The position numbers and the translations under genes are program-made. A stretch of DNA of 64,000 nt from Eubacteriales bacterium (lineage in GTDB: Bacteria; Bacillota; Clostridia; Lachnospirales; Lachnospiraceae), in the NCBI GenBank assembly GCA_030533405.1, contig JAUNJF010000001.1, positions 210,042 through 274,041 on the forward strand, written 5' to 3'. Of the stretch, positions 3,915-64,000 are shown in pieces. The notes below the pieces were generated by a model. It was not told the origin of the DNA. It saw nothing but the letters and a program-made list of their open reading frames with translations, and ran no database searches. Every line of letters starts with the position of its first letter. The first letter of the stretch is position 1.

Positions 3915-3926
3915 GTGGTATCTAGG

Positions 3927-4127
3927 GGATGCAAAACTCAATTTTAGGTGGTTGTGGATTGTAAAATATGTACAAATCCACTTCGCCACGTTTGCACTCA
4001 GTTATGAATGTAACGGATACTAAGGTTGCAAAGTACGCAACCTAAGTACCGACATTCATAAATGGACGAATTAGGATTGTTGTACGTATTTTACAATCCA
4101 ATCTACATAATCGAGAGTTTTGCAATC
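3927..4127 (+). repeat. Long inverted-repeat intergenic element, copy A
   Basis: This ~200-base gene-free stretch folds into nested stems. The outermost arm is GCAAAACTC at 3931-3939 pairing with 4115-4123. Next is a 20-bp arm at 3956-3975 pairing with 4080-4099 with a single G-U pair. The central hairpin is TATGAATGT (4003-4011) with ACATTCATA (4052-4060), topped by AGGTTGC/GCAACCT around the loop AAAGTAC (4030-4036). Copy C at the window end shares the sequence GTTTGCACT, the loop and the CTAAGTACC segment, and copy B shares the outer arm type. It ends about 37 bases before the xylanase start, so it probably lies in that gene's 5' untranslated region. Either a MITE-like repeat or a structured RNA would fit. 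Confidence 0.8.
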
Positions 4128-4163
4128 GCCTGTGTGAAAGCATAAGTAAGGAGGAGAAAGTGT

Positions 4164-5384
4164 ATGGGAAATTATGAACATCGTAAGGCGGCTAGAAAAA
4201 TCGTTGTTGTGAACGCAAATGGGAAAAAGGTAAGTAATCAAAAGGTAGCATTTAAGCAGACAAACCATAGTTTTTTGTTTGGATGTAATGCATTTAATGT
4301 GTTAGGATATCTAAAGGTGCCGGATGAAGAAATTAAGGCAAAGCTAAAAGAAAGTGTTGATTTGTGGCTTGATTTGTATAATTTTGGTACATTGCCATTC
4401 TATTGGGGTGGATATGAGAAAGAGGAAGGTTCGCCAGATCAGGAGAGCTTGATGGAGGCTGCAAAGCTTTTAAAGTCGCATAATGTAAAGATTAAAGGAC
4501 ATCCATTGTGTTGGCATACGGGATGTGCAGACTGGCTTATGAAATATGATAATGCAACCATTTTGGATAAGCAGTTAAAACGAATTGATCGTGATGTTAC
4601 AGCGTTCAAGGGTATCATTGACATGTGGGATGTTATTAATGAAGTTGTCATTATGCCTGTGTTTGATAAATATGACAATGCGATTACCAGGATTTGTAAG
4701 GAAATGGGTCAGGTTCCGCTTGTAAAAGCTGTATTTGATGAGGCAAAGAGCATGAATCCAAATGCAACTTTGCTATTAAATGATTTTAATGTATCACCTG
4801 CTTATGAGAGATTGATTGAGGAATGTTTGGACGCAGGTGTTCCAATTACTACGATTGGAATTCAGTCGCATCAGCATCAGGGCTATTGGGGTGCGGAAAA
4901 GGTTCGTGACGTCTTAGAGCGGTTTTCGAGATTTGGATTGCCAATTCATTTTACAGAAAACACCTTGATTTCAGGTCATATTATGCCTGCACATATTGAA
5001 GATTTGAATGATTATCAGATACCAGAATGGCCGTCTACTCCTGAAGGAGAAGACAGACAGTGCAAAGAAATGGAAGAGATGTACCGTCTTTTATTTGAGC
5101 ATCCTTCCGTGGAGGCAATTACAAACTGGGATTTGGTAGATGGAGAATGGCTTGGAGCCCCATCTGGTATTGTTCGAAGAGATAATACACCAAAACCAGC
5201 ATATCATATGTTGAAAAAGTTAATCAAAGAAGAATGGTGGACAACAGGAGAGCAAGTTACAGATGAAAATGGTGTGATTGAAATTTCAGGCTTTAAGGGA
5301 GATTATGAACTTCAGGTAGACGGTAAAAAGGCATCGTTTATCTTGGAGGATGGAGATGACGTTGTAACCATTCAGTTGGCATAA
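4164..5384 (+). CDS. Endo-1,4-beta-xylanase, GH10 (intracellular type)
   Basis: This 406-residue protein should hydrolyse beta-1,4-xylosidic bonds. The GH10 acid/base glutamate lies in WDVINE (E160) and the nucleophile in HFTENT (E265). CWHTGCADW near residues 113-121 matches the conserved substrate-binding HTLVWHS-type region. There is no signal peptide: the sequence starts MGNYEHRKAARK. It therefore probably acts in the cytoplasm on imported xylo-oligosaccharides. A short beta-rich tail (about residues 365-406) follows the barrel. The ribosome binding site AAGGAGGAG lies 8-9 bases upstream of ATG 4164. The link to the importer just upstream supports xylan use, although element A separates them. 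Confidence 0.93.
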   Translation: MGNYEHRKAARKIVVVNANGKKVSNQKVAFKQTNHSFLFGCNAFNVLGYLKVPDEEIKAKLKESVDLWLDLYNFGTLPFYWGGYEKEEGSPDQESLMEAAKLLKSHNVKIKGHPLCWHTGCADWLMKYDNATILDKQLKRIDRDVTAFKGIIDMWDVINEVVIMPVFDKYDNAITRICKEMGQVPLVKAVFDEAKSMNPNATLLLNDFNVSPAYERLIEECLDAGVPITTIGIQSHQHQGYWGAEKVRDVLERFSRFGLPIHFTENTLISGHIMPAHIEDLNDYQIPEWPSTPEGEDRQCKEMEEMYRLLFEHPSVEAITNWDLVDGEWLGAPSGIVRRDNTPKPAYHMLKKLIKEEWWTTGEQVTDENGVIEISGFKGDYELQVDGKKASFILEDGDDVVTIQLA

Positions 5385-50465: not shown

Positions 50466-50548
50466 GTTTTTCCTATTTCTGCGATTATTTGTTATATTGT
50501 TTCATGTTTATACTTGCTATATTGCTAGTACCTACTGTAGTAATAGTA

Positions 50549-50753
50549 GGTAATTGTGAAACTCTCAATTTTTTATATTTAAGTTGTTCATATTTAACAA
50601 GGACCATGTAAGGACTCTTTGAGTACGCCAGTACTTGATGAGTGCTGTGCACGAATTTAGTACTGTTGCGTGCGAAAGAAGTGAAAACGTGTCCGGCGTG
50701 GTTTGTTAAATATGTACAGCTTGTGATAACCTAAATTGAGTTTCACAATTACC
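50549..50753 (+). repeat. Long inverted-repeat intergenic element, copy B
   Basis: The ends are perfect 16-bp terminal inverted repeats, GGTAATTGTGAAACTC at 50549-50564 and its complement at 50738-50753. A second arm of 18 bp with two mismatches joins 50583-50600 and 50703-50720 (ATATTTAACAA). The interior differs from copies A and C and contains CAGTACT/AGTACTG. A separate 8-bp inverted repeat TACCTACT/AGTAGGTA overlaps the left end (about 50529-50552). The element has no ORF and stops 22 bases before the MATE gene start. Confidence 0.8.
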
Positions 50754-50775
50754 GTTATTGGGAGGAGATGGCAAT

Positions 50776-52131
50776 ATGAAGAATAAACATGTAATGGATA
50801 TGACAAAGGGAAATGAAACAAAATTATTGTTGTTGTTTGCATTGCCAATGGTGATTGGAAACATTTTTCAACAGTTTTATAATATGGTAGATTCGGCGAT
50901 TGTTGGTCGATATGTTAGCTCGAACGCGTTAGGTGCTGTTGGATTGGTCGGCAGTGTAAATTTTTTATTCTTTTCGCTTTGTTTAGGATTGGGTTCTGGT
51001 ATTGGAATCCTGATTTCACAGTATTTTGGAGCAGGTAACACAGAATATATCAAAAAGATTATTGCGAATGCCATTTATATTGTATCTGGTGCAGGAATTG
51101 CAATGGGTATGATTGGTGTTGTATTTGCGAAACCAATTTTGCGATTGATGAACACACCGAACGAGAATTTTCAAGATGCACTGGTGTATATGCGAATTGT
51201 GTGTGCTGCAACGATTGTCGTAGCGATTTACAATGGAATTTCGAGTGTGTTAAGAGCGCTTGGAGATTCTAAAACACCACTTGCGTTCCTGATTGTAGCG
51301 AGTGTGATTAATATTGTATTGGACTTTGTATTTGTTTTAGCATTTCATATGGGTGTTGCAGGTGTTGCGTTTGCCACTGTAATTTCACAGATTATTTCCG
51401 CAATTGGTTCTGTTGTTGTGGCGGCACGTGTGAATCCGTATTTGAAATTAGAAAAGCGTCATTTTAAGGTAGAGAAAGAAATAATTGTTGAATGTTTCCG
51501 CATTGGTCTTCCGGTTGCAGGACAATTTGCGTTGATTGCATGTTCTTGCATTGCTTTGCAAAGTGTGGTGAATCGTTATGGTGCGGTGGTAATGGCAGCA
51601 TTTACCGCAACATCAAGAGTGGAACAGCTAGTACAGCAGCCGTTTAATTCGTTGGGAACTGCAATGTCAACATTTGCAGGTCAAAATGTAGGTGCCAATC
51701 GTTATGATCGTGTGAAGACAGGTTGTATGAAGGGATGCAAGCTGGTTGCGTTATTTAGTTTGATGATGATTGTTGTGATGTATCTTTTTGGAGAGGCGAT
51801 TGTTGGTATTTTTATCAAGGAGCCGGAGATTATAGAAATTGGTGCAAAAGGACTTCGCATTACAAGTGTTATGTACTTTGGACTTGGGTTGATTTATGTG
51901 ATGCGTGGCATGTTAAATGGTGTGGGAGATTCGATGTTCTCTATGATTAATGGTGTTTGTGAAGTGATTGGAAGAATTGGATTTGCGGTTGTTTTGATGA
52001 TGATTCCATCTGTTGGAATATGGGGTGTATGGTATACAAATGGTCTTACCTGGTTGCTGGCAGGTGCCGCTGGTGTAATTCGATATTGTCAAGGTAGCTG
52101 GAAAACCAAATCGGTAGTGCGACATAGTTAG
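50776..52131 (+). CDS. MATE-family efflux transporter
   Basis: The product is 451 residues from ATG 50776, with GGGAGGAG upstream. It has twelve hydrophobic segments in two halves: KLLLLFALPMVIGNIFQQFY and MVDSAIVGRYV at the start, GLPVAGQFALIACSCIALQS in the second half, and VQQPFNSLGTAMSTFAGQN, typical of the NorM/DinF-related Firmicute MATE group. It is not closely similar to the other MATE protein at 24955. Element B sits directly in front and may belong to its leader. Confidence 0.92.
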   Translation: MKNKHVMDMTKGNETKLLLLFALPMVIGNIFQQFYNMVDSAIVGRYVSSNALGAVGLVGSVNFLFFSLCLGLGSGIGILISQYFGAGNTEYIKKIIANAIYIVSGAGIAMGMIGVVFAKPILRLMNTPNENFQDALVYMRIVCAATIVVAIYNGISSVLRALGDSKTPLAFLIVASVINIVLDFVFVLAFHMGVAGVAFATVISQIISAIGSVVVAARVNPYLKLEKRHFKVEKEIIVECFRIGLPVAGQFALIACSCIALQSVVNRYGAVVMAAFTATSRVEQLVQQPFNSLGTAMSTFAGQNVGANRYDRVKTGCMKGCKLVALFSLMMIVVMYLFGEAIVGIFIKEPEIIEIGAKGLRITSVMYFGLGLIYVMRGMLNGVGDSMFSMINGVCEVIGRIGFAVVLMMIPSVGIWGVWYTNGLTWLLAGAAGVIRYCQGSWKTKSVVRHS

Positions 52132-52245: not shown

Positions 52246-53021
52246 TATTTTTGTTTTGTATTTGAATTTGGTGAAATAACCTGTTTGTTTACGACTTTCT
52301 TTTTCTCTGGATTAACCTTTTGAGAACGGTTACCACTTTGCTCTGGTTTTGCTGCTGCACTTGGTTTTTGTGCTACCGGTTTGTTGTTTGGAGCAACTGG
52401 CTTTTGCTGATTTGGAACAACCGGTTTTTGTGGAACTTGCTGCGTAGGTGTAACGGCAGGCTTTTGTGCTACCGGTTGATTGTTTGGAGCAATAGGTTTT
52501 TGCGCTGCTGCCTGATTGTTTGGAGTAACAGGCTGTTTTGCAGGCTGCTGCGTGTTAGTTGTCACAGCTGCGGGCTCCTTTGCGATTGCCTTTGTATCAG
52601 GAATTGCTCCGCTAGGATTAATTACCTTTGTCTTCTTAGAGAAAGAAGCGTTATACTCTCTTGCGATTTTATTCATGTTTCGGATGATGAATAAGTCAGC
52701 CAATAATGGGCCAAACAATACGAATTTACCAAAAGTCCAGAAAAATAGGATGATTCCAGGACCTGGATGAATCTTGATTCCCATTTGTTCACCAGTTACC
52801 TGAATACGATCTTCTAAATAAAATAACCAAACCCAACGATAAATACCAAGTGTAATAATGGATAAGAAACAAACTAATATGTAGTTCTTGATTTTCTTTT
52901 CCTCGCGGTTCATTTCATTTAAATCTTTTGTGAAACGATACCAAAATACAATGTTATAAATACCTAAGGTTGGAAGTGTAAATAAAAGTAACTTCCAAAG
53001 TCGCCGTTTTTCATTCACCAT
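52245..53021 (-). CDS. DUF4234-like membrane protein with Pro/Gln/Ala-rich repeat tail
   Basis: The 258-residue protein has an N-terminal half with three hydrophobic segments and the repeated YNIVFWYRFTKDLN and YRWVWLFYLEDRI pattern of DUF4234 proteins. The C-terminal ~120 residues are low complexity, made of tandem variants of KPxxPNNQPVAQ, ending with a Lys-rich stretch. The repeats could span the wall or act as a flexible linker. Function is unknown. Confidence 0.75.
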   Translation of the reverse strand: MVNEKRRLWKLLLFTLPTLGIYNIVFWYRFTKDLNEMNREEKKIKNYILVCFLSIITLGIYRWVWLFYLEDRIQVTGEQMGIKIHPGPGIILFFWTFGKFVLFGPLLADLFIIRNMNKIAREYNASFSKKTKVINPSGAIPDTKAIAKEPAAVTTNTQQPAKQPVTPNNQAAAQKPIAPNNQPVAQKPAVTPTQQVPQKPVVPNQQKPVAPNNKPVAQKPSAAAKPEQSGNRSQKVNPEKKKVVNKQVISPNSNTKQK

Positions 53022-53238: not shown

Positions 53239-53267
53239 TTGACACACCTGGGGCTGTGTGATAAAGT
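53239..53267 (+). promoter_or_regulatory. Promoter of rplJL operon
   Basis: Perfect TTGACA at 53239-53244 and TAAAGT at 53262-53267, 17-base spacer, about 10-15 bases before the L10 leader. Confidence 0.75.
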
Positions 53268-53277
53268 AGCCATTGAT

Positions 53278-53390
53278 GAACTGCCGAAGACAGTAGGTAC
53301 CATTTGGTGTAAGCATAGCGCCTACCGAGGAAGAATCGTATGAAAGACGTTTCGCTCTGTATCTTCGGATATGGAGCTTTTCTTTTTATA
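53278..53390 (+). promoter_or_regulatory. Ribosomal protein L10 leader (autoregulatory mRNA element)
   Basis: The leader shows GTAGG (53293-53297) pairing with CCTAC (53331-53335). CCGAAGA (53284-53290) is complementary to TCTTCGG (53362-53368). A competing hairpin, CTCTGTATC (53355-53363), loop TTCG, GATATGGAG (53368-53376), is followed by CTTTTCTTTTT, an attenuator-like terminator. This matches the known L10 leader, where L10-L12 complex binding represses its own operon. The two pairings of 53362-53368 are mutually exclusive, which suggests a switch. Confidence 0.85.
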
Positions 53391-53431
53391 GAATCGCGCA
53401 GTCATTAATAATATAAGGAGGCGCAACAAAC

Positions 53432-63641: not shown

Positions 63642-63702
63642 GTGCAAAATGAATGCATGAGGTATCTTAATTAAATGAAAAATTGAATCATAAACAAAAT
63701 GA

Positions 63703-63727
63703 AAAAAGTTGGGTGTCCAACTTTTTT
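63703..63727 (+). terminator. Intrinsic terminator after NitT/TauT operon
   Basis: AAAAAGTTGG, loop GTGT, CCAACTTTTT, then TT-ATTT. Confidence 0.88.
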
Positions 63728-63856
63728 TATTTATGTGAATATAGCTAAATGAAAAGATTAAGAGAATGATGTCACAAAAAAAACACACTTTTGACAAATT
63801 ATTTTCAAAAAATTGACAAATTGTTACCACAAAATGGGCATAAAGTATATAAGGTA
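63728..63856 (+). other. AT-rich spacer with repeated TTGACAAATT
   Basis: TTGACAAATT occurs twice (about 63782 and 63805). The copies look like -35 hexamers, but no -10 sits at proper spacing. It probably contains the promoter of a gene beyond the window. Confidence 0.35.
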
Positions 63857-64000
63857 GGTAATTACGAAACTCAATTTAAAATAGTGAACTCTGTAAAATA
63901 TAAACAAATCCAAGTTGGGTCGTTTGCACTTAATTATGTATGTAGTGGTACATAAGGTCACAAAGTACGTGACCTAAGTACCAACATACATAAATATCCC
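63857..64000 (+). repeat. Long inverted-repeat intergenic element, copy C (cut by window edge)
   Basis: It begins GGTAATTACGAAACTCAATT, very like the terminal repeat of copy B. It continues with TGTAAAATATAAACAAATCC and GTTTGCACT, as in copy A. The central hairpin is TATGTATGT (63935-63943) with ACATACATA (63984-63992), topped by AGGTCAC/GTGACCT around AAAGTAC. Compared with copy A, both stems have compensatory changes. The right arm is outside the window. Confidence 0.8.

Follow-up and report, generated by a model that had tools for sequence, protein, structure and literature searches.

The three hairpin elements found in the window (the whole stretch of 64,000 nt of Lachnospiraceae DNA that was analysed), here called copies A, B, and C, are likely to be copies of a non-autonomous, palindromic, MITE-like mobile element, the insertion of which is keyed to the Shine-Dalgarno (SD) sequence and the arms of which are matched mainly as DNA. 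The family transposes, and its insertion is locked to a Shine-Dalgarno-like sequence on one flank, apparently a new targeting habit. The original prediction had named a structured RNA, a binding site for a protein, and a MITE family as options for this element. The last of these is backed by inverted repeats, target duplications, an empty site, and many copies beside unrelated genes, whereas the structured RNA has neither a match in Rfam nor an excess of G-U pairs.

Copies in the window and their relatives

Copy A is a full hairpin element of 211 nt, including its terminal arms (3922..4132, plus strand), and is slightly larger than first predicted. As had been noted, it is directly upstream of the xylanase reading frame, ending 31 nt ahead of the start of this GH10 xylanase-type gene (4164..5384, plus strand; PF00331, E 1.1e-31), to which its core is sense. 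The left terminal arm (3922..3939, plus strand) reads CTAGGGGATGCAAAACTC and the right one (4115..4132, plus strand) GAGTTTTGCAATCGCCTG, the family consensus being TAGGTAATTGCGAAACTC. Between them is the conserved core (3985..4069, plus strand), made up of a mini hairpin and the P3/P4 arm, which matches the core covariance model at 75.2 bits, copy A itself being one of the 40 sequences behind that model. The mini hairpin, GT-TTGC-AC (3990..3997, plus strand), has two covarying pairs family-wide; the P3/P4 arm (4002..4061, plus strand) is formed by TTATGAATGT/ACATTCATAA and AGGTTGC/GCAACCT around the fixed loop AAAGTAC. No target duplication was recognised around copy A. The SD sequence AAGGAGG (4148..4154, plus strand) is outside the element, 15 nt past its end. 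Positions 3920-4135 fold at -89.7 kcal/mol as RNA (z = -10.65 against 200 shuffles) and at z -11.48 as DNA.

Copy C (63855..64000, plus strand) retains 146 nt, the rest being lost at the contig end, and its core matches at 85.2 bits (63917-64000). The other end of this contig is likewise inside a copy. The pattern AAAGTACNNNACCTAAGTACC, with up to three mismatches, has two matches in the window, which are A and C, where 0.03 are expected (100 shuffles). The order ascribed to A and C (arm, TGTAAAATAT, ACAAATCC, GTTTGCACT, central hairpin, loop AAAGTAC, CTAAGTACC) is present in both, and the stem differences quoted between them are correct, with pairing preserved. A terminator was said to precede C; a terminator-like hairpin is there (63702-63727), with its T-run on the plus strand by eye, but the scan puts it on the minus strand.

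A third, antisense copy had been missed. Copy B (50547..50755, minus strand) is a diverged copy of 209 nt (cmsearch 40.3 bits, E 5.7e-9), absent from the BLAST matches obtained with A as the query, and its core is antisense to the downstream MatE-family gene (50776..52131, plus strand; PF01554). It is an exception to the SD spacing described below, the SD being only about 5 nt off. Elsewhere in the window are a ribosomal protein L10 leader (53266-53392; RF00557, 65.8 bits) and four 45-nt repeats (52363-52539), with starts 36-60 nt apart, within a minus-strand open frame.

About 50 relatives are present in the window's own genome; the largest measure about 245 nt, the smallest are 29-nt remnants, and the inverted ends are the same. 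A BLAST search with copy A gave 25 matches there, two of which are reverse-strand re-reads (of A and of one other copy). The ends of the long copies are an 18-nt inverted arm with the consensus TAGGTAATTGCGAAACTC, matched 120 times in the own genome with up to three mismatches (17 for the reversed pattern) and 75, 156, and 90 times in the sister genomes G010, G022, and G023 with up to two mismatches (0 for the reversed pattern). Paired arm matches in the own genome fall into size classes of about 51, 80-92, 112, 205-213, and 244 nt, and 29-nt mini hairpins retain the ends alone. Element lengths across genomes range from 29 to 346 nt, which leaves no room for a transposase gene. Below, 53 own elements refers to a hand list made from arm matches and 57 own elements to an automatic rule, which includes a few chance pairs. 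In G010, extra hairpin modules are nested in elements of up to 290 nt; those of the CTAAGCTCG..CGCTAAG type (L246, L262, and L267) resemble modular growth. Elements of 290 and 345 nt are present in G022. Several draft contigs end inside elements (C74 at both ends, C33, and C69 in the own genome, G000; C5, C14, and C12 in G010), therefore copy counts in the drafts are probably underestimates.

Target duplications are found around 24 of the 37 G010 elements, 16 of the 39 in G022, and three of the 57 in the own genome, where 0.00, 0.01, and 0.03 are expected with shuffled partners (score 8 or more; elements whose flank is shorter than 60 nt were excluded). Their lengths are 9-14 nt, with a mode of 11 and mostly 10-12 nt. 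In G023, duplications are found at 10 of 18 elements. As few duplications are left in the own genome, its copies look mostly old.

Evidence of an empty site comes from the junction between two genes that we take, from their protein sequences, to be gltB and gltD. By eye, 12 of 20 loci (from a total of 22) are compact and element-free, and in G022 the junction holds a 210-nt element, flanked by a duplication of 9 nt, with AAGGA at a distance of 16 nt. Matches to the core model are also found upstream of gltD in G012 (81.9 bits), G020 (27.0 bits), and, weakly, G011 (E 0.083), and thus the junction has probably been invaded more than once. In G010, one element (L242/L183) joins the 3′ end of a gene, presumably MatE-like, to a C-terminal fragment, presumably flavodoxin-like, a possible element-mediated rearrangement.

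No transposon or larger element with the same ends was found in the loci examined, in draft assemblies that break at repeats. A pair of ends spaced by 2.2 kb in G022 is not a larger transposon, being two separate elements flanking gltD. A Pfam search of four genomes for the transposase families PF01609, PF00872, and PF00665 found neither of the first two in G010 and G023, and the one frame matching PF00665 in G010, of 69 aa, is no convincing transposase. Two matches to PF01609 in G022 and the one in G000 are located in an element whose inverted ends are different.

Matched changes in the hairpin arms

The compensatory changes that had been reported between copies are far beyond chance. An alignment of 20 long own copies (of 23, the three with longer inserts being left out, as were the contig-cut copies) has double changes in 46 of 73 pairs, in 161 cells compared with 41 after shuffling. 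Likewise, for 49 core sequences (45 of the 47 de-duplicated sequences from named contigs, 81 rows, and four from the own genome), 11 of 18 pairs have double changes, in 107 cells compared with 30. One core pair is C-G in 27 sequences and U-A in 22, with no intermediate.

Such covariation was originally read as a sign of selection on structure, either RNA or cruciform DNA. The covariation is real, but does not itself demonstrate selection on RNA, there being no excess of G-U. In column-based counts (69 of 73 and 18 of 19 predicted pairs), the ratio of G-U to A-C cells is 29:25 overall, 15:8 in the terminal arms, 1:6 in the central arm, and 4:7 in the core, against 23:0 in 13 tRNAs from the same loci that were scored alike; as both structure choosers permit G-U, it is inflated on both sides of this contrast. 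Since G-U is no commoner than A-C, unlike in the tRNAs, pairing seems to be kept mainly at the DNA level, which points to arm-to-arm correction or a role for folded DNA. A sense-strand alignment test gave G-U to A-C ratios of 112:85 in the own genome (p 0.064, towards RNA), 111:136 in G010, and 135:206 in G022; the column-based count is preferred, because the strand test counts fixed ancestral mismatches many times. Some RNA-level selection may still act on the old own copies.

Template switching in DNA replication can produce matched double changes (PMC8794818). The matching of the arms could also reflect selection instead of correction. Asymmetric features of the core are conserved in sequence (the mini hairpin, a bulge, an AUA/AA internal loop, and the loop AAARNAC); these are hard to get by arm correction and argue for recognition of the core as well.

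It is unlikely that this is an ordinary MITE decaying from one consensus, with compensatory changes that are those of subfamilies carried by transposition. Subfamilies with paired differences do exist, and the terminal arms have little excess of matched changes over shuffled data in G010 (13 compared with 8.1) and none in G022 (10 compared with 15.4). Decay from one consensus, which would have told against the original prediction, is however not what the own genome shows: among 41 elements in which no duplication is recognisable, changes matched between the two terminal arms number 44, compared with 13.4 after shuffling (maximum 25), and 23 compared with 5.7 once the three common subfamily-variant positions are removed. 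In addition, 94.4 % of cells still pair in the 20 diverged copies. A looser count of matched terminal changes (65 compared with 28) lets chance pairs in and is superseded by the strict count.

Position and orientation relative to the Shine-Dalgarno sequence

Strict SD motifs were defined as AGGAG, AAGGA, and GGAGG. On the 266 flanks of 133 elements, a strict motif starts after 16, 17, 18, and 19 nt in 23, 43, 31, and 19 cases, respectively (one flank may count repeatedly), compared with 0-4 per position below 12 or above 22 nt. It is 10-21 nt out on one flank in 90 of the 133 elements and on both flanks in none; the other 43 are without a strict motif. At 13-22 nt, a strict motif is present for 34 of 57 own elements, 29 of 37 in G010, and 30 of 39 in G022; the corresponding share of intergenic positions in these loci is 6.7-7.1 %. 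For elements with intact duplications, the strict motif is at this distance in 37 of 43; a relaxed motif is present in 41 of 43, against a null of 12 %. The lock is weaker in G023, with a strict motif in 10 of 18 elements and five of the 10 with duplications, and three of the five duplication-bearing elements without it have AAGGG at 16-17 nt. Same-type elements in named contigs have the motif in 14 of 19 cases; nine of these 19 are G010 or G023 records, and seven of the remaining ten have it. No other strongly informative flank features were found.

Where there is a duplication, the motif is beyond it, therefore the SD motif predates the insertion. A start codon is within 60 nt of one end in 47 of 53 own elements, at 24-36 nt in 39. 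For 80 elements the variances are 3.4 from element to SD, 4.6 from SD to start, and 7.4 from element to start; these sum as placement by the SD motif predicts, and the idea that elements are placed chiefly at a set distance from the start codon is rejected.

Orientation was counted where an element measured at least 190 nt and only one of its flanks carried a strict motif. Of these elements, 48 are sense and 13 antisense (p 7.7e-6). The ratio is 24:10 for those with an intact duplication (p 0.024) and 15:0 for those that have lost it (Fisher p 0.021 between the two), suggesting that antisense copies arise but are short-lived. Both orientations are found among duplication-bearing copies, so the core does not fix orientation.

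Random insertion, with selection sparing only copies at a fixed distance before an SD, either because insertion elsewhere is harmful or because spacing matters, is quite improbable as the source of the lock. Operon junctions are tight, 27 of the 53 own elements also abutting the stop of an upstream co-directional gene, and the stronger sense bias in copies without duplications indicates that some selection acts. Against this, the lock is at least as frequent with intact duplications as without (41 of 71, some chance pairs included), the first motif on a flank falls within 13-22 nt for 92 flanks but within 23-50 nt for 13, and spacing tracks the SD rather than the start codon. One element, for which no duplication was recognised, also has AAAGGG 17 nt out in a flavodoxin-like coding fragment. 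SD-like motifs inside genes could be targets too, with insertions there being purged, and recognition could be of the DNA sequence or of the start site.

Distribution, comparison with known systems, and interpretation

The covariance-model search of relatives that had been suggested recovered the core in 122 of 299 sampled genomes of the family, representing 121 of 298 genera, with rough E-values, strict filters, and at most 15 candidates scored per genome. A scan for the core pattern found at least 111 stretches, including some in Anaerobium acetethylicum, Coprococcus catus, Roseburia, Acetatifactor, Eisenbergiella, and many Lachnospiraceae and Clostridiales MAGs; there were no matches in viral contigs. 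In other genera the core is the same and the outer arms are different, even among the copies of one genome, yet self-complementary, with neither shared ends nor a convincing duplication, as judged from 29 cores of rough extent (from 26 of 40 loci, none from G294 or G082), the outer arms of which were extended by local alignment only. In G131 and G314 (loci L358-L372), the core copies within one genome have copy-specific, still self-complementary outer arms.

Very improbable, in our view, is a dispersed structured 5′-leader RNA, riboswitch- or attenuator-like, with its RNA fold selected in each gene. Its stable fold, strong covariation, loops conserved in many genera, leader position, and sense bias would all suit such an RNA, as would an own-genome copy (L012, 1493-1703) between a SAM riboswitch (1758-1855; RF00162, 64.5 bits) and metK, element and riboswitch both being on the minus strand, which places this copy inside a regulated leader. 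However, there are target duplications and an empty site, 10 of 34 long duplication-bearing copies are antisense, coreless forms of 29-51 nt occupy the same place, and G-U is not in excess of A-C as it is in tRNAs. The downstream genes are unrelated among the 10 proteins tested (GH10, MatE, ABC, GH120 insert/beta helix, response regulator, metK, LuxS, NAPRTase, UvrD, and RmlD). Rfam 15 has no match to the element in the window and eight loci, in a search that worked, since it recovered the SAM riboswitch and the L10 leader. Given the unrelated genes and the absence of an Rfam match, a single riboswitch-like family is also rejected.

The family has three features of a MITE: terminal inverted repeats, target-site duplication, and short elements without a transposase gene. 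It does not have those of a cis-regulatory RNA: a described RNA family, downstream genes of a single function, and RNA-type pairing, in which G-U is tolerated and A-C is not. In the open-access literature, most subscription papers being outside the search, neither the repeat nor the rule of insertion at the SD was found in print.

Parts of this behaviour are known from other systems. Tn7 uses a one-sided target motif at a fixed distance with biased orientation, as the present family does, however Tn7 carries its own genes and has one main chromosomal site, whereas this small non-coding element occupies dozens of SDs in each genome. MITEs mobilised by insertion sequences, such as MITEAba12, are likewise short and non-coding, with inverted ends and target duplications, but no insertion sequence sharing the ends of the present family was found as a partner, and insertion is one-sided and SD-keyed. 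The bcr1 repeats of the Bacillus cereus group are also non-autonomous, structured, dispersed between genes, and marked by compensatory changes; they are about 150 nt long, and are set apart by another sequence and duplications of about 5 bp. We know of no SD-locked insertion for bcr1. In Streptococcus pneumoniae, 125 BOX and 110 RUP elements are present in one genome, and the part of the source available describes these as small palindromic repeats with terminal inverted repeats, target duplications, and strong predicted folds that include the ends, BOX being modular and some being transcribed with genes (PMC3049150). On that partial description they resemble the present family in palindromic form, inverted ends, duplications, and strong folds; they differ in host group and in that no fixed distance to an SD is described there, while the present family has duplications of mostly 10-12 nt and one family-wide core inside differing arms.

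For the MITE-like reading, a mechanism can be proposed. A putative transposase would recognise the inverted ends TAGGTAATTGCGAAACTC and insert the element, duplicating about 11 bp of the target, its one-sided choice of site being keyed to an SD-like purine tract (AAGGAG) that comes to lie about 16-19 nt from one element end. Copies would in this way settle in leaders and at operon junctions, leaving the ribosome-binding site undamaged. Their hairpin arms would stay matched mainly as DNA, through arm-to-arm correction by template switching, through reading of the folded DNA by the mobility machinery, or both. Inserted copies would be co-transcribed, and as sense copies outlast antisense ones, the host gene may feel the strand on which a copy lies. 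It is possible that old sense copies have been co-opted by the host, a candidate role. More tentatively, and as a proposal that may well prove wrong, this could be a transposition system aimed at the SD, in which a target complex reads AAGGAG, as DNA or via the translation start machinery, at a fixed distance and in a preferred orientation, with the core hairpin acting as folded single-stranded DNA in the reaction.

The matched changes in this family lack the G-U signature of the tRNAs, a caution that even textbook covariation does not have to imply a functional RNA. If the system does aim at the SD, evolution would have produced a transposon that settles at ribosome-binding sites across the genome while doing little damage. 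Insertion keyed to the SD would let a mobile element find gene starts throughout the genome without breaking genes, and would explain the presence of the same hairpin in dozens of unrelated leaders and operon junctions of a major gut family.
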